From the NCBI GenBank assembly GCA_028753945.1, contig JAPNXP010000001.1:8422501-8486500 (forward strand): a stretch of 64,000 nucleotides of DNA, in the 5' to 3' direction. Position numbers and translations under genes: made by a program. Of the stretch, positions 4,152 through 47,070 are shown one piece after another. Origin of the DNA: Hexactinellida sp. DTS-2022. Lineage: Eukaryota; Porifera; Hexactinellida. The stretch's first letter is position 1; every line of letters starts with the position of its first letter. The notes beneath the pieces are model-generated. The model was not told the DNA's origin. It saw nothing but the letters and a program-made list of their open reading frames with translations, and did no database searches.

Positions 4152-5003
4152 ATGGTAACGCTACATCAAAAAAGCTTAATTCACAGATGCTTCTCGAAGG
4201 ACATTCCATTGATATTATTTGCGACTACGCTGATCTGCATTATGTTGTGTTTGCTGCTTCTAGCTCTCTACGTGCACTCCGCAGCTCTCCCTGCCTGGGA
4301 GCTTAACCACAAGTGGAACAGACTAACCATGGGCCTCGGGGGCCAGACCTTCTGTCTCTCCGATAGAGACACTGCAGAGCTGTATTCTCACTGCATGCCC
4401 CCCTCTGATACCAATTCGGTACAGCAGATAGCTTTTACAGTTAAAGCGAGAGTTCAGTTGGAAGAGTCTTTCTTGCTGAGTGGGGCAAATATAACTCTGT
4501 ATTCTTGTTTCGATAGACAGCTAGTTGCTAACGACATAGACGCTCTCTCCTTAGCTAAGAATACGTATTTCTCCTTATCTCTCACTTTGCCTGCGCCACT
4601 CAATCAAGATATTGAGATGTGTGTAGCGGTTACATCTACGGACAAACTAGTCATCAATCACTTTCAAAAGCTAACTATCTCCCCCTATCCGCCCGAGTGC
4701 CAGATATCGCTCCCTGCCGAGACATCGCTTAGAATGCTGCCCGCGCCGCTCCTTAGCAACTTGTCTGGGTGTGAGCGTGTACGTATACAGCCCGTGCTAC
4801 AGCCGTCAAACAACTGGGAGCTGTCTCGTATCTTCAAAGACGCCTTTCCGCTCGTCAATCTAGCTCTCACTGAGCAGAGTAAATTCCTAGCTGCCAAACG
4901 TCTTGTCATGATGTCTCTCTTTTTGCTGTTAATTGTTTTAATATGCGGTCTTGTATATTTTATTAGAAGTAATAGAAGAGTTTTCTGTAAATCTTGCTTT
5001 TGA
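4152..5003 (+). CDS. TMEM248/TMEM219-like two-pass membrane protein
   Basis: The frame is open from 4086, but I place the start at the Met at 4152 because it puts a short cytosolic segment before the first membrane helix, as in TMEM248. The 283-residue protein has a hydrophobic segment about 20 residues in (LFATTLICIMLCLLLLAL), an extracytosolic domain of about 190 residues with several cysteines (FCLSDRD, YSC, MCVAV, PPEC, SGC), and a second membrane helix near the C terminus (SLFLLLIVLICGLVYFI). The post-helix-1 stretch (W..L...L...FCLS), the CVAV...SPYPPEC stretch and the LVNLALTEQSKFL run before helix 2 parallel TMEM248. TMEM219 of the same family is an IGFBP3 receptor. The gene is single-exon and precedes the F-box gene by about 315 bp in the same orientation. 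Homology is distant; the fallback call is an unassigned two-pass membrane protein. Confidence 0.5.
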   Translation: MVTLHQKSLIHRCFSKDIPLILFATTLICIMLCLLLLALYVHSAALPAWELNHKWNRLTMGLGGQTFCLSDRDTAELYSHCMPPSDTNSVQQIAFTVKARVQLEESFLLSGANITLYSCFDRQLVANDIDALSLAKNTYFSLSLTLPAPLNQDIEMCVAVTSTDKLVINHFQKLTISPYPPECQISLPAETSLRMLPAPLLSNLSGCERVRIQPVLQPSNNWELSRIFKDAFPLVNLALTEQSKFLAAKRLVMMSLFLLLIVLICGLVYFIRSNRRVFCKSCF

Positions 5004-38400: not shown

Positions 38401-38506
38401 GATGCCCCTATATCCAAAAAAGTTTGGTATGATTTGCTCTTACTTTGTGCCAAGTTTCACGCTTTTATCATCAAAAGCACAATTTTTCCACTAAGCGGCT
38501 GCACTA
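35405..38506. mobile_element. 3.1-kb element with 260-bp TIRs, inserted in the integrase
   Basis: Left end TAGTGCAGCCGCTAAGTG and right end CACTAAGCGGCTGCACTA are the tips of inverted repeats of about 260-295 bp (35405-35700; 38225-38506). The 3-bp flanks GTA/GTA (or TA, depending on how the tip is drawn) restore the integrase frame when counted once. A second, diverged copy of the right end lies at about 38085-38180. The interior contains a hAT transposase relic and a TACCGTAT-family fragment (about 35855-36035). Superfamily unresolved. Confidence 0.7.
36400..37320 (-). pseudogene. hAT transposase relic (ZBED5/GTF2IRD2-like)
   Basis: On the minus strand, at about 37200-37110, WEVLYFLSEQDGKPKCLLC resembles the start of the BED-like zinc finger of this transposase group. 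At about 36510-36425, WIRDLAFLTDITHHLNNLNL followed by KLQGK is the diagnostic block of the same group. Frames are broken throughout. It lies inside the 35405-38506 element, either as its original cargo or as a secondary insertion. Confidence 0.72.
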
Positions 38507-38978
38507 GTACTCCAACAACTCCTTTTGATCTTGATCACATGATACAGATGCAATATCAGGGTAGCGAAAGGCCTGGTTCTCTGCCTCCGTTGGGAGGCGA
38601 GGTTTCCTCGAGCCATGCATTAGCTCAAATGCGGAAAATTGTGTAGTGTCTCTAGGTCTGATATTCAAGGAAAATGTTATTTCTTCTAGGTAGTGGGACC
38701 AATTTTCCTTCTTTTCACCCAACGACTTTACCATAGATCTCTTGAGAGCTTTGTGGGTAGACTCTACTAAGCCATTGGTTTGAGGGTGGTAGCCTGGTAG
38801 GGTGTCGAGAAAATAAGCTTGCAGTTATGTGTATCTTGCAGTGCCTTTGAGATCTGATTTTGAATTCTGAACCATTATCACTGATAATTTGTACTGGTGC
38901 CTGTCGACAATAAATAGAGAATAATATTGCTTTGGCGACTTCATTTGCACTTTTTTACCGGAGAAGACGAGTCTCAAT

Positions 38979-39442
38979 CAGAGATGCAGCGGTCTGGACC
39001 GGACCGGACCGACCGGTCTTAGGTCTCTCCGGTCTGCTTATTTTCAAGTGCGGTCTGGACCGGTCCAAATTAACGATATAACGGTCTGGACCGTTCATCG
39101 ATCTGGACCGGTTCATCGGTCTGGACCTTTCATAGGTCTGGACCCTTAATAGGTCTGGTCTCATCCTAGATTGGACAAACGATCAGGCTCCAATCCGTTA
39201 TTTCTTATTGTTTACAAGCACATAAGTTTCTTATAAATACAAGTGGATATAATTAGCCACTCTACTATGCGGTCTGTGACTGTCCAAATAAGGGATAAAA
39301 CGGTCTGGACAGTACATCGGTTTGGACCGATCCAGACCGATCCAATATTTTGATCATACGGTCTGGACCGGTCCGGACCGTCCAGAAAAAAATCATGACG
39401 GTCCAGTCCGGTCCATGAAATTTCCGGACCGCTGCATCACTG
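38979..39442. mobile_element. hAT MITE built of GGTCTGGACC words
   Basis: 464 bp, ends CAGAGATGCAGCGGTC and GACCGCTGCATCACTG, perfect 8-bp TSD GTCTCAAT (38971-38978, 39443-39450). The body repeats GGTCTGGACCG and its complement more than ten times. Confidence 0.85.
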
Positions 39443-39690
39443 GTCTCAATCCATTTGGTAAAATGGTCAATGAATGTCAAAATGTATTTATACCCCTCCG
39501 ATTCGACAAGTGGGCCAGTAAGATCCATCCCAACGTGAAACCACACTTTGGCAATCACTGGGAGTGGTTGAAGAGGTGTAGCAGGAGCCTTGATACTGGG
39601 TTGGTTCTTTAAGCAACGGACACAATTATCAACGTATGACTCAATATGCTTCAACATCCCAGGCCAAAAGAATCTGTCTTTCCCAATGCT

Positions 39691-39831
39691 CATGGGCATA
39701 ACTTTTGAGGCCGGACACCAAAAGTTGGGGGGGTCCTAATTGAAATTGGGGTGGTCCTAATGAGATCGGACCCCCGAACCTTAAATGTTGGGAGGGTCCG
39801 ACCCCGAAAAAAAGGGAAGTTGGCGCCTATG
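39691..39831. mobile_element. hAT MITE, 141 bp
   Basis: Ends CATGGGCATAACTTTTG and AAGTTGGCGCCTATG, perfect 8-bp TSD CCAATGCT (39683-39690, 39832-39839). Same family as 29953-30269. It splits the integrase zinc-binding region. Confidence 0.85.
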
Positions 39832-40543: not shown

Positions 40544-41122
40544 AATGAGTGTGAAGTTGGCAGCGAAATCATATTTAATGAGTGTGAAGTTGGCAGCGAA
40601 ATTGGACAAAAAAATCGAGCAACTTTCACACGCCATAATTTCGTGTTCAGGGAATATAGAGAGGTGTCGTTTGGAATATATCAATACCAGCCTAGGAGGT
40701 TTTTGTCATTTAATTTCATCTCAATCTGACACCTCAGGTACACAGGGTGACATTGCAAAAATTTGCATAAATTTGACAAATAATTCACATTCTCTAAAAT
40801 CGAGCACACTTTCACACGCCATAGTTTTGTGTCCAGGGCACATAGAGAGGAGCCATTTGGAATATATCAATACCAGCCTAGGAAGTTTTTGTCATTTTAA
40901 TTTCATCTCAATCTGACACCTCAGTGACACAGGGTGACATTGCAAAAATTGACAAATAATTCACAATCTCTAAAATCGAGCACTTTCACACGCCATAATT
41001 TTGTGTCCAGGGCACATAGAGAGGTGCCATTTGGAATATATCAATACCAGCCTAGGAGGTTTTTGTCATTTTAATTTCATCTCAATCTGACACCTCAGTG
41101 ACACAGGGTGACATTGCAAAAA
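40544..41122. repeat. Left iterated TIR of the OTU transposon
   Basis: The tip (AATGAGTGTGAAGTTGGCAG) occurs twice, at 40544 and 40577. Three units start near 40616, 40801 and 40977, each with TTTCACACGCCATA, CAATACCAGCCTAGGA and TGACATTGCAAAAAT. Confidence 0.85.
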
Positions 41123-41423
41123 TACACCAGACAGTAATCGGTTAAATTATACAAAATATGTAGATGTCTTTGAATCTGTTATCGTATGCTCGAAAATTTG
41201 TTTTCTAACTCACACAATATGAAATCGTATAAGATTGTTATTTCTTAATTACTATGTAATAATACGTGTATACAGTATATTAATAAATTACTTCAATTAC
41301 CATTGTAGTTACATATAGAGCTTCTTTATCATATACGTGATCATAAGCGTAATTATATAACTAACATACTAGTAGTATTCATTTGATATTCATCAAATTT
41401 ATAATATTGTCCTTTCTCGAATC

Positions 41424-41684
41424 ATGTTATTATTTTCACTTTATTTTCGCATTATTTTTTTATTCCACGATGTTTCTTTGTTACTCCGAAGTGGTGATAT
41501 TGAAATAAACCCTGGACCTTTAACACAAGGTAAGTAATTTCTGAAGTTAAATATTAACTAATTTCTACCCAATTGTTATTCTCTAACGATTTCTAGTTGA
41601 TGGAAATTCTCGAAAGAATATGCAATATCTAATTGTGAATGCATTGTTTGCTTTGGAAATCGAATGGTCTGAAGTTGAAAAATA
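41424..41684 (+). CDS. Leader exons of the OTU transposon with a 2A-like motif
   Basis: Exon 1 (41424-41529) encodes a short hydrophobic leader followed by LLLRSGDIEINPGP, then a GT-AG junction (GTAAGT at 41530; acceptor TTTCTAG ending 41596). SGDIEINPGP fits the 2A consensus D-(V/I)-E-x-N-P-G-P, which makes ribosomes skip the Gly-Pro bond. Exon 2 from 41597 reads on in frame (VDGNSRKNMQ) to a stop at 41684 unless a further intron removes it; GTAAGT at 41731 is a candidate donor. The hydrophobic run before the motif resembles the signal-peptide-plus-2A leaders described in some invertebrate proteins. Its link to the transposase frame downstream is plausible but not shown. Confidence 0.6.
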
Positions 41685-42018
41685 ACTAAAAGAGAACCAG
41701 AATTGGCGTTACCCAAATACTATTTGGGTAAGTTATCTAAATATATATTTGGTAGAAATCGTGCTTGTCAACGTGCAAAAATAATGAACATATGGCGCAA
41801 AAACCAAACACAAATTCAATCGTAAATTTCTGAGCTTTCAGATGTCCGATGAATCTGATAAACTTCTTCAGAATTTACCAATTAGTATTAGTTTTCTACA
41901 ATTCCCAGCAACATATTTTCTCACTCCAGTTGGAAGATCTCTTATTTCACAATCTCAAAGTATTGCTCTAGACAATTTAGAGAGTCTTAGTACAAGTAGT
42001 ACCGATTCAAATTTTACG

Positions 42019-43204
42019 TATACGAGCCCTTCGGTCTCGGTCGCTTCGCGACGGATCTCTCTCTCACAAAAGTCGCTTCGCGACTTTTGTTCGTTCGTGT
42101 TATTCACTACGCGATACAATTAACGGCCGCTTCGCGGCCTTTCCCTTCCCAAAAAGCTATATAGTATTACTATTCAGTTTCACCTGTGGCTAGTGAATTA
42201 CACACTATTACTTAATAACGCGTGCCTAAAATTCATTTTGGGTTGTGATTCCTGTAATTTGTTTGGGGAATTATGTTGAGTAAGTTATTCTCATTGCTCA
42301 ATAGTTATTAATTATTAGTTAATTAATAGCTCAATAATTCTTAAGGATAGCTCGTTCAGCTATACGTATTAAAAGGTTCAGCTTGTTAGCTCAAATAAAT
42401 TGAGACCTGTGGTTGGTAAATTATACGCAATTAATTATTTCAGTAAGTTGTATTGCAAAGTAATTTACTAACTCTGGGTGTAATCTCTCCATAATAATGG
42501 TTTAAAGATGAGAATAAGACCGCTTCGCGGTCTTATTCTCACCATTAAACCATTATTATGGAGAGGTAAATCCAGGGTTGCAAAATATTTGATTTATAAA
42601 TAGTAATAAAGTTCTACATCTCAATAAACAATTCTTTTTGCAGGAGCTGGGTTAGTGAATTATTTAATTTAATTGATAGTAATAATTAACATAATAAATC
42701 TCATCGTTATAGGCAGAACCAAAAATCCTAGATTACTTAACTTAATTAATTTCTAGTAGAAATCCTAGGTTAGAAATTACGTAATCCCATTGATAGTCTT
42801 ATTATAGGAAGCCAATATAGGTGTAATAAATAAACAATGCATCAAAGAAATTAACTACTCTAAGCGCATTCTTGTTAACCAAACAAATCAGATCACCCAC
42901 ATGGTGATACAAATAATAGGACACATTTTAACTAATAACTTTTGCTATGTAAGTTAGTAAAAATTGATAATTTTCACAAAGGTGTTCCATTATGTGTTGT
43001 CGATTTTCATATAAAATTTGTACTAACCGAGTCAAATGTGCAAAAGTTATTAAGGAAAAGGTTACCGTGTGATGTCATACTCACAATATTTCGCTTAGAA
43101 AACCAACATACCCTTGTCGCTATGACAAACTACTCCTATATACCAAATTTCAGCTCTCTTGGTAGCATGGTCTTTTCAATCAATTACGGACAAACATCCC
43201 CCCC

Positions 43205-43245
<41 letters not shown>

Positions 43246-43267
43246 CAATTCCGCTTTTAATATATAG
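42019..43267. mobile_element. Hairpin-headed repeat element, copy 2
   Basis: Same head as 20413 (TATACGAGCCCTTCGGTCTC) with perfect small hairpins AGTCGCTTCGCGACT, GGCCGCTTCGCGGCC and, at 42519, GACCGCTTCGCGGTC flanked by long arms CCATAATAATGGTTTAA...TTAAACCATTATTATGG. Tail is an A/C run ((CA)n at 43208-43243) then ACAACAATTCCGCTTTTAAT and ATATAG. It interrupts the OTU transposase or sits in one of its introns (acceptor-like TATATAG at 43267). Confidence 0.6.
43208..43243. repeat. (CA)n microsatellite
   Basis: About 18 CA dinucleotides directly after a C run, at the tail of the hairpin-headed element. Confidence 0.9.
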
Positions 43268-46200
43268 ATTCATGCTGAGGAAAGAGACCATAGCTCCTTA
43301 CCTATTTCGTCCGCCTACCTTGATGAAGAATTTGAAATGTTTTCTCCCGTGTGCAATTTGAAAACAAGCAAAATTTCAGAAAGGAACAACGAGAGCAAAT
43401 TTGAATGTCCAAAATCTTTTGAATTCTCAATGAATAAAAGTGAATGGGATATTATATTGCCAAAAATTGATGGGAAACAATTGAAACCCGATGGACGAAC
43501 ATTTTTAAAAAAATTCTGTTTTTTCTCCTTTTTGCGTCATTAAATTTCTCTACCATCGTATTAACAAATCTACTATCGGAAATTGCTCATTTCTTGTTGG
43601 AGAAGCTATTTGTAAATTCAAGAACTGTTTAAGATATGAATTTCGGATAAACGATATTCCTAATCCTGCAACAGAAAATATTTTTGTTAAAGTAAATGTT
43701 TTAGGATCGATTTCTTGCCAGCACTTTGATAACATAACATCATTTTCGCGAAAATTGTCTGGCCAAGTAAGGAAATTAGTTGCTGGAAAATTGGTTCATA
43801 ATTCTGCGAGTAGTATCCATTACAAGCAATTTGAACAATCTAGTAGTTTAGATGTTGCAAAGCATGGTAACCTGAACTTTCTGAAATCCCAAGAAGTCTT
43901 TCGCAAAGTGAAATCAGAACATGATTCAAATAGCAGATTAAGTGATGATATGTGGCAAGATATCATAATCACTCAAAGGACCTATGATAGTAATATTAAA
44001 GGAGATATTCTTAATGGTTATATACAGACCATATCTCGATATCCAATTGTCATCCATATGCACACGGAGGAACAAATACGTATTATCAAAAAACTTCAAC
44101 CTGGAAACTTGATAATGCATTTGGATGCAACTGGTTCAATTATAAGAAAAATGGACAAATTTCACAAAAGAATCTTGTATTATGCTTTAACAGTGAGGCA
44201 TCCTGAAGCTAAAACTTCCCCAATTCCGCTTGCTGAGATGATAAGCAGTGAACATACTAATGTTGAAATTGGCCATTTCCTAAGCAAATGGTTCTATAAT
44301 GTAAAAAAGGTATTAAATAAAGATACTATTATTACACATGTTGAGGTAGATTTTAGCTGGGCTATGTTACACAGTGTTTCCAACAGCTTTAATACACAAA
44401 CTCTAGACTTATACTTGGATGCTTGCTGGAAAAGAATTAACAAGAAAGAAATAGGTATCAACAGTATTAAAACCACGATTCATATATGTTCAGCACACAT
44501 AATGAACCGTTTCAGCTACAAGATTGAACGTAAATTAACCAAAAGGCCGACGAAAGAAAATAAACGAGTGATGATGTTTATAATGGCACGGATTATAAGT
44601 TGTACAACTCTAGAAGAAGTAGACCAATTATTTACATCCCTGTGCATATTGTGTTTATCTCAAATGAGATACCCTGAAGTTGAACAGTACATTAAAAAAA
44701 TTGAGAATGCAATATTTCATGATAATGAAAATTATGAACTCGGAATGGATTATTTGTCAGAAATTGATGAGGAGTTATATAATGAATTAGGAGATAGTAT
44801 GACATATAAAAATAAGTCTCCCTTTGGAAGACATTTTGATTCCATTCTACAGAAAAGTAATTCCTTCGTACAAGATTTGCAAACTCGACGCCAAACTACG
44901 CCTCTGGAATTGAACAGCAGATATTTTTTACCGGATTTGCCTGAGTATTTGGTAACACATTACATGCCCATATGTCCTTTATGGACCGGAATGATTATTG
45001 GAGCAACTTTATTCCCTGGAAAGTTAGATGTCACTTTTACGAACTCTTTTGTGGAAAATTGGATGAAAATTGTTAAACATAATATTTTGAAAGACGAAAT
45101 AAAATTGAGGCCAGGTGACTTTATAAGAAAAATTTATGAAGGAATTTCAGGTAGAATTAAAGCATTCGATTTTGCTTTTCTTCCAATTAGCACCAAGGTG
45201 TTGAAGAGAATCAAGTTAAAGATAGAAAGCGATAACACACAAATCGAGGAAATCTGGGAAAGACGCAAGAGAAAGCGAAGTTATTTCAAACAATGCCAAT
45301 TGGCCAAAACAAAGTTTAGTGAAATAAATATGAAACAAAATAAACTCACTAAACCTGAGCAAAAAAAGAAAATAAGAAGAGGGAGAAAGTTCAAGAATTC
45401 AAAAATATCAGAAAACCTTCCCAATCATGTGCAAAGTGATGATAGTATCTCCGATCTAGTAGTACATGATGTTCTTTTTCATGATCACGGACAATTTTCT
45501 CCTGTTACTTCTGATTGGCAACGCCAAAAATGTAAAGAATTTATGTTTACATATATTCTGGGTGTCATTTATGAGAATGAGGCTTTTGATAAAAGTTTAG
45601 AGATTCGAAAGTTAGCTCCATCAAAGGAAAAGCGAGTATCTCCCGATGGAAATTGTCTCTTTAGTTCTCTATCTTATGTTGTAACTGGCTCAGATCATTA
45701 TCATAAAGAATTTAGAGAGTTGTTAGTTACCAATATGAAAAATAAATATCGAGCAGAATGTACGAACTACGAACTATTGCACAGCAAAATACGATTTACT
45801 TCCTGAGAAGCATTGTGATACAATAGAAGAATATATAACTGTAAGTATGATGGATCGAGTAGGATCGTGGGGGACAGACTTAGAATTGTTTTAGCAGCTC
45901 AACTCCTTAAAACGGATATTTTCGTATTCAAAGATGTAAATCGTTGCTGGAACAAATTTTCAGGCTATGGGTTCAATGACAAACAAAATGTACATGATTT
46001 AACTGAGAGAAGGTTGTATTTGCGTTTATATTTCAGTCATTTTCAACCAGTGACAAAAGTCAATACAGTAGAGAATGTGATGACTGATAGTTACATAGAA
46101 GAATTTGATCCAATTCAATAAGATACTTTTCACTTTTATATAGAGTATTATTATAAACAGTAGAGTTTAGAAATCGGTTTAAATTAAGCTATCACTTATA

Positions 46201-46349
46201 TGGTAATTTTATATCAGTATTCTAGAATACCAGTATTATTAGACATGACTTTTTGTTTTGGAAAACTATAGTTATGCAATACTTTGGGTTGGGAGTGGGT
46301 AATAGCTATACGACTGCAATGTCGTTAGAATAACAGAAAATTTGAAATT

Positions 46350-47070
46350 TTTTGCAATGTCACCCTGTGTCACTGAGGTGTCAGATTGAGATGAAATTAA
46401 AATGACAAAAACCTCCTAGGCTGGTATTGATATATTCCAAATGGCACCTCTCTATGTGCCCTGGACACAAAATTATGGCGTGTGAAAGTGCTCGATTTTA
46501 GAGATTGTGAATTATTTGTCAATTTTTGCAATGTCACCCTGTGTCACTGAGGTGTCAGATTGAGATGAAATTAAAATGACAAAAACCTCCTAGGCTGGTA
46601 TTGATATATTCCAAATGGCACCTCTCTATGTGCCCTGGACACAAAATTATGGCGTGTGAAAGTGCTCGATTTTAGAGATTGTGAATTATTTGTCAATTTT
46701 TGCAATGTCACCCTGTGTCACTGAGGTGTCAGATTGAGATGAAATTAAAATGACAAAAACCTCCTAGGCTGGTATTGATATATTCCAAATGGCTCCTCTC
46801 TATGTACCCTGGACACAAAACTATGGCGTGTGAAAGTGTGCTCGATTTTAGAGAATGTGAATTATTTGTCAATTTTTTTGCAAATTTTTGCAATGTCACC
46901 CTGTGTCACTGAGGTGTCAGATTGAGATGAAATTAAAATGACAGAAACCTCCTAGGCTGGTATTGTTATATTCCAAATGACACCTCTCTATGTGCCCTGA
47001 ACACGAAATTATGGCGTGTGAAAGTGTGCTCGATTTTTTGTCCAATTTCGCTGCCAACTTCACACTCATT
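46350..47070. repeat. Right iterated TIR of the OTU transposon
   Basis: Four units in the opposite orientation to the left TIR, marked by CAATGTCACCCTGTGTCACT near 46354, 46530, 46703 and 46890. One unit more than the left side. Confidence 0.85.

Follow-up and report, generated by a model that had tools for sequence, protein, structure and literature searches.

A hydrophobic leader exon ending in a putative 2A (StopGo) core belongs to a Mutator-like DNA transposon of Hexactinellida sp. DTS-2022, and similar leaders appear on other transposon classes

Results

The window, as the whole stretch of DNA analysed here is called (64,000 nucleotides; G000:C1:8422501-8486500, in a searched genome of 112.4 Mb on 18 contigs), contains a transposon copy on the + strand at 40545..47069, which was delimited by reading its tips (ATGAGTGTGAAGTTGGCAGCGAAAT at each end) and the 9-mers flanking them. 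Repeat search placed a terminal and subterminal inverted-repeat array at either end: the left one consists of tandem units (40568..41123, + strand; arms of up to 367 nt at 98%), and the right one lies at 46340..47069 (− strand). An exon of the transposon (41424..41529, + strand), read directly and kept in near-identical copies, starts with an ATG at 41424 and translates as MLLFSLYFRIIFLFHDVSLLLRSGDIEINPGPLTQ, that is, a hydrophobic leader, a 2A core and the residues LTQ, followed by a GTAAGT donor at 41530. The core, DIEINPGP (GAT ATT GAA ATA AAC CCT GGA CCT; 41496..41519, + strand), was identified by reading the sequence and by a pattern count across the genome. It conforms to the rule for StopGo/2A cores, the residues ahead of its D are LLLRSG, and the N-terminal hydrophobic stretch ahead of the 2A has a hydropathy (KD15) of 1.83. 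The first-pass annotation had claimed the motif, the hydrophobic leader and the donor for this exon, and all three were found at the positions given.

A predicted intron of 67 nt (41530..41596, + strand; GTAAGT to TTTCTAG, the acceptor AG ending at 41596) has counterparts in paralogues, where in-frame introns are predicted with the donor at the same place. Joining 41424-41529 to 41597 leads in frame into VDGNSRKNMQYLIVNALFALEIEWSEVEK and then to a TAA (41683-41685), which breaks exon 2 (41597..42022, + strand), the start of the N-terminal domain of the transposase according to the spliced reading and the copies. Exon 2 is followed by an insertion of ∼1.24 kb (42023..43264, no strand assigned), which is missing from the copies L009, L010, L011, L012, and L014, and the transposase ORF extends, from stop to stop, over 43509..45806 (+ strand). 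With the stop in exon 2 and the insertion, the window copy is dead. Palindromes of the CGCTTCGCG type and an extended CA run occur in the insertion, which probably represents at least one small nested element. Elsewhere in the window, a stretch at 38500-39700 (− strand) resembles, by eye, a piece of a retroelement pol/integrase, and a patch of GGTCTGGACCGG repeats lies at ∼38980-39440.

Transposons of the Mutator superfamily have target duplications of ∼9 bp and long terminal inverted repeats (TIRs), and their transposases have a DDE RNase H fold with a CxxH motif. The window element has TIR arrays, and among the six copies with both ends present, the flanking 9-mers agree at 9/9 positions in three (L009, L010, and L011), at 8/9 in L012, and at 6/9 in L014 and the window copy. 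Alignment of the transposase ORF identified D206, D281, C327xxH330, and E516 (ORF numbering), which are kept in nearly all ungapped rows (D206 in 39/40, D281 in 37/37, C327 in 36/36, H330 in 37/37, and E516 in 35/35), and a C-terminal OTU piece. The fold nearest to the predicted structure (mean pLDDT 75) is that of ISCth4. None of the Pfam transposase models matched the window transposase; OTU alone was recognized, below threshold, and in P0002 it exceeds the cut-off.

A genome search with the DNA of the exon returned 11 matches, one of them the window copy; the other 10 come from six near-identical and two diverged elements, since two of the six are interrupted and have two exon matches each. 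In the near-identical copies, the exon follows the left repeats and precedes the transposase, in elements with long inverted repeats, ∼9-bp target duplications, and a DDE transposase. The first-pass annotation had assigned the exon to a DNA transposon and had suggested searching the other copies for it. The assignment holds: the exon lies inside the element at 40545-47069, and the six near-identical elements, which were retrieved by the exon sequence itself, all carry it at the same place, as do paralogues. In an independent search with the transposase, 4/4 places with at least 91% protein identity also carry the exon (among the matches listed). The outer repeats are more diverged in three near-identical copies (L010, L011, and L014); in L014, the leader exon is interrupted, directly before the 2A, by a small element (∼4291-4705) in which ATGGGTCA repeats abound. 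Diverged paralogues keep their own version of the 2A exon at the same place, many copies being broken. In L015, for instance, the transposase DNA is 72% identical and the leader is a different one, ending in GDIEVNPGPLTS, with the donor at the same place. A 2A also lies upstream in paralogues with 37-68% protein identity (among the matches listed). The leader exon is a real feature and part of the transposon.

For six subfamilies (L015, L021, L027, L048/L049, L061, and L071), a GT-AG intron, in every case a prediction from sequence, can join leader and transposase in frame. In five of these, donor and D codon are 34 nt apart, the same spacing as in the window; in L071 they are 55 nt apart. A scripted search for such joins in 17 sequences returned no in-frame join for nine (the window, L011, L018, L035, L039, L040, L051, L076, and L025); the window nevertheless reads in frame by hand, and leader and transposase frame are both present in L018, L035, L040, and L051. 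An in-frame join in L009 was left out of the count because its acceptor is unlikely and its own exon 2 has a stop.

Cores of this kind were then counted in the 112.4 Mb with patterns that coded valine as GTA/GTC/GTT (RTH) and missed GTG, which makes all totals lower bounds: D[V/I]ExNPGP gave 50 matches (reversed pattern, 0), G[V/I]ExNPGP 69 (reversed, 0), a W-R-Y codon at the D/G position with the rest of the core 4 (reversed, 1), and the wider [V/I]ExNPGP at least 128 (reversed, 3). A chance motif is rejected by the reversed patterns (0 vs 50 and 0 vs 69). The missed GTG is probably the reason why L088 and L094 escaped the pattern list although they carry a 2A. According to tblastn or direct reading, 30 of the 50 D-type loci stand ahead of the window transposase family (class A) and 16 belong to class B, described below; three (L022, L032, and L047) have the leader common to the class A loci L048 and L049, and L025 is without class. 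Nine of the 69 G-type loci were read and comprise two of class A, two Mutator loci by Pfam, four with one type of N-terminal protein (one of these, L073, having a helicase downstream), and L076, which is without class; among the other 60, further loci are tied to class A by distance. In L077 (1-1601), GNIETNPGP is followed by a cysteine-rich, weakly PHD-like stretch; this locus may be a non-LTR retrotransposon with a 2A.

The StopGo/2A core is given as (D/G/C/N)(V/I)ExNPGP in the accessible part of PMC12846837, where active L-rich upstream motifs end in (A/S/C)G before D, or in (A/G/S)G at the G position, and where H at the core N position (p16), a rare variant, has >95% activity. Neither p10, p11, nor any other upstream position was part of the search pattern. 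At the D-type loci, p11 is G in 46/50 (28/32 distinct sequences; background G frequency, 3.5%), p10 is A/S/C in 44/50 (26/32 distinct sequences), and the nine residues preceding are 64% L/I/V/F/M. Eight Mutator leaders picked by protein similarity end in GGVEEHPGP (five times), GGVEENPGP, GGVELNPGP, and GGVEVNPGL; thus, seven of the eight have a core form given as active in the accessible part of PMC12846837, five of them with p16 = H. In L089, L090, L091, L092, and L095, EEHPGP replaces ExNPGP, which matches this rare variant in a cellular genome. Outside the known active set are the cores of L013 (asparagine changed, N to Y), L079 (E at p12), and L093 (NPGL). The pN/pS of the core is 0.12, but as the core was the search key, this value is circular and was rejected as proof of selection; pS between subfamily cores is 0.62-0.74, that is, synonymous differences are large. 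Hydropathy (KD15) of 24 leaders ranges from 1.28 to 3.31, and the most hydrophobic run of 15 residues ends at most five residues from the core in 21 of them. Leader lengths vary much, and in class B a long distance separates the hydrophobic run from the beginning of the open frame.

How regularly the 2A accompanies the transposase was assessed from the transposase side, in a search in which 66 of 994 candidates were scored, giving 75 matches and, after 10 second-piece rows had been dropped, 65 places that represent part of the family. Among the matches listed, 26/65 places are preceded on the same strand by a 2A core at a distance of up to 6 kb (chance expectation, 0.2), none has one on the opposite strand or downstream, and 39 have no listed 2A in reach upstream. 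A G-type core lies 1.53-1.55 kb upstream in eight of the 26 places, which are 37-41% identical, and five of these eight have uninterrupted frames of 1251-1260 aa; uninterrupted frames (1245-1261 aa, 37% identity) are also found at ten of the 39 places without 2A (all among the matches listed). Leaders of paralogues whose frames are uninterrupted lie at C13:4677097, C6:1160897, and C9:442051. The upstream DNA of six 2A-less places (L065-L070) was read and contains no NPGP; in L066, the ORF has a Met directly before the N-terminal domain. The notion that every family member has a leader was rejected, and because the 39 places without 2A include ten with uninterrupted frames, the leader is not required for transposition generally. 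The transposase superfamily comprises lineages with and without leader, and distant members are often without. One subfamily, found at G000:C1:12266711-12268687 and at five equal-scoring places, is 37% identical to the window transposase, has no listed upstream 2A and includes several uninterrupted frames of ∼1255 aa; it is presumably young.

In class B, leader, 2A, H2C2 finger, and integrase core form a single ORF (PF00665 3.2e-10, PF17921 3.5e-8), and one element has 147-bp TIRs that are 98% identical (C11:5176526/5179935). Ginger1 transposons combine an integrase core and an H2C2 finger with TIRs of ∼40-270 bp, a CCGG/CCGT duplication, and a C-terminal OTU or Ulp1 domain, as described in the accessible part of PMC2836005, in which the string NPGP does not occur. 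The CCGG/CCGT target duplication is absent from the flanks of one class B copy, and no C-terminal OTU or Ulp1 was found in L043 or L085 (one element); because these two Ginger1 features fail, the class is called integrase-type here. Relatives of class B with a 2A are P0062 (best genome match 81%) and P0065 (best 85%, without its leader). Class C has leader, 2A, and a PF20700 Mutator transposase in one ORF (L081, E 4.9e-24). Class D is represented by one locus, where a leader-2A ORF precedes ORFs of the same orientation that contain DUF6570, Helitron_like_N, and PIF1; the distance from the 2A at C2:899120 down to the helicase ORF (PF14214 4.9e-29, PF05970 6.5e-24) is ∼2.5 kb. Class D thus appears to be a Helitron with a candidate 2A leader, an assignment made by position at this one locus.

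Three of the four classes, A (L071/L082), C, and D, have in common a leader of the form MISIExWRxRIG...LLxxGG[V/I]ExNPGP, the proteins downstream being unrelated and the likeness at the DNA level being limited to 14-35 bases. The Mutator protein P0099, which carries the MISIExWRxRIG leader, has a best full-length match of 44% in the assembly and therefore probably comes from another genome. Judged from their sequences, DNA transposons of several unrelated types appear to encode, at the N-terminus of the transposition protein, a short hydrophobic leader with a terminal 2A.

Discussion

The reading we favor, with a probability of roughly 0.8, is that a StopGo/2A leader belongs to the transposon and that skipping frees the transposase from it, the leader probably being a brake or divider. 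From the sequence, we infer splicing, skipping, the fate of the leader, and its effect on targeting or dosage as follows. Splicing would place the entire transposase immediately after a short, hydrophobic leader that terminates in GDIEINPG|P. On reaching NPG|P, ribosomes would let the leader go and continue, yielding a separate transposase that begins with proline and lacks the hydrophobic stretch. A minority of them, failing to skip or falling off, would produce a leader-bound, membrane-directed protein or none at all. The leader would then be a separable module, probably a brake on the transposase or a divider of it. StopGo activity of the leaders is, on sequence grounds, highly probable, and the chances that dosage or release is the main point of the leader are about even.

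That the exon is foreign to the transposon, stemming from a host gene or an inserted retroelement, would fit the occurrence of 2A in non-LTR retrotransposons (PMC4981915, accessible part), but the exon has a constant place in near-identical copies and paralogues and is followed by a predicted in-frame intron; the retroelement was rejected on the constant position, and an origin outside the transposon is extremely improbable. The motif might also be a fossil, an old 2A-type peptide kept by chance and inactive, as the dead window copy, the many broken copies, and the few changed cores would suggest. However, with pS between subfamily cores as high as it is, the flanks, which were not selected for, still follow the 2A rules, and places with uninterrupted frames carry a 2A, which makes a fossil very unlikely.

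Two further explanations accept a working 2A and differ in what the leader does. As in the NLR proteins of sea urchins, it could be a signal sequence that also skips, so that cytosolic or nuclear and secretory forms of the transposase arise at a ratio set by the 2A. There is a tested precedent in the sea-urchin NLR leader, where the unskipped fraction is held at the membrane or exocytic route (PMC4981915, accessible part), and the position of the hydrophobic run close to the core in 21/24 leaders agrees with it. However, no reason to secrete a transposase is known, leader lengths differ much, and in class B the run does not lie near the frame start. Moreover, StopGo itself depends on hydrophobic residues, those close to the core acting in the ribosome tunnel (PMC12846837, accessible part), and the leader therefore need not be a signal sequence. 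Dual targeting is somewhat unlikely as the explanation. Alternatively, the released peptide could be a second product with a job of its own, for example a membrane microprotein, the 2A yielding two proteins per message. The MISIExWRxRIG stretch points in this direction, as it stands at the start of the leader, far from the core, in three unrelated classes, and so does P0099, one such Mutator protein, which is not encoded in the assembly. In contrast, the class A leaders of the window type are short and variable outside the hydrophobic run and the core, and a second product is unlikely. Release of the transposase from a brake or divider remains our preferred reading.

A broader and more tentative view, possible rather than probable, is that 2A leaders are a swappable N-terminal cassette of unrelated transposons (OTU-bearing Mutator-like, PF20700 Mutator, integrase-type, and Helitron), passed between classes or repeatedly fixed because release tunes the amount of free, nucleus-going transposase, the MISIExWRxRIG peptide having its own task. 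That 2A leaders recur on DNA transposons of unrelated classes within a single genome would point to a new level at which transposases are controlled. No report of a 2A on a DNA transposon was found in searches of open-licence papers, and an earlier mention is possible; PMC10641963, which came up as a candidate, was dismissed since it matched through the gene name GTF2IRD2/2A-like. Candidate 2A leaders of natural origin from outside viruses, including those with G-type and H-variant cores, become available for direct testing. Known occurrences of 2A comprise RNA viruses, non-LTR retrotransposons, and certain NLR genes of invertebrates, a range that class II elements would extend.

Odon, in 2013, reportedly described 2A in non-LTR retrotransposons of the APE type, which the present case resembles in that the 2A is part of a mobile element; those elements copy RNA, whereas the proteins concerned here are DDE transposases, an integrase-type transposase, and a Helitron. 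Compared with IS256/Mutator-type transposases such as that of ISCth4, the window family differs by its lack of a Pfam transposase match and by its C-terminal OTU piece. Class B resembles Ginger1 in its integrase core, H2C2 finger, and 147-bp TIRs, but has a 2A leader in addition and, in the one element concerned, neither OTU/Ulp1 nor the CCGG/CCGT duplication (PMC2836005, accessible part). With the 2A signal sequences of sea-urchin NLR proteins, the leaders share the N-terminal hydrophobic stretch ending in a 2A; there it belongs to host immunity genes, whereas here it precedes transposases and is often a separate first exon (PMC4981915, accessible part). The likeness to the StopGo/2A of RNA viruses extends to the (D/G)(V/I)ExNPGP core, the L-rich upstream region, the (A/S/C)G before D, the GG form, and p16 = H, but the viral 2A stands within a polyprotein, whereas here it is the putative leader of a DNA-transposon protein (PMC12846837, accessible part).
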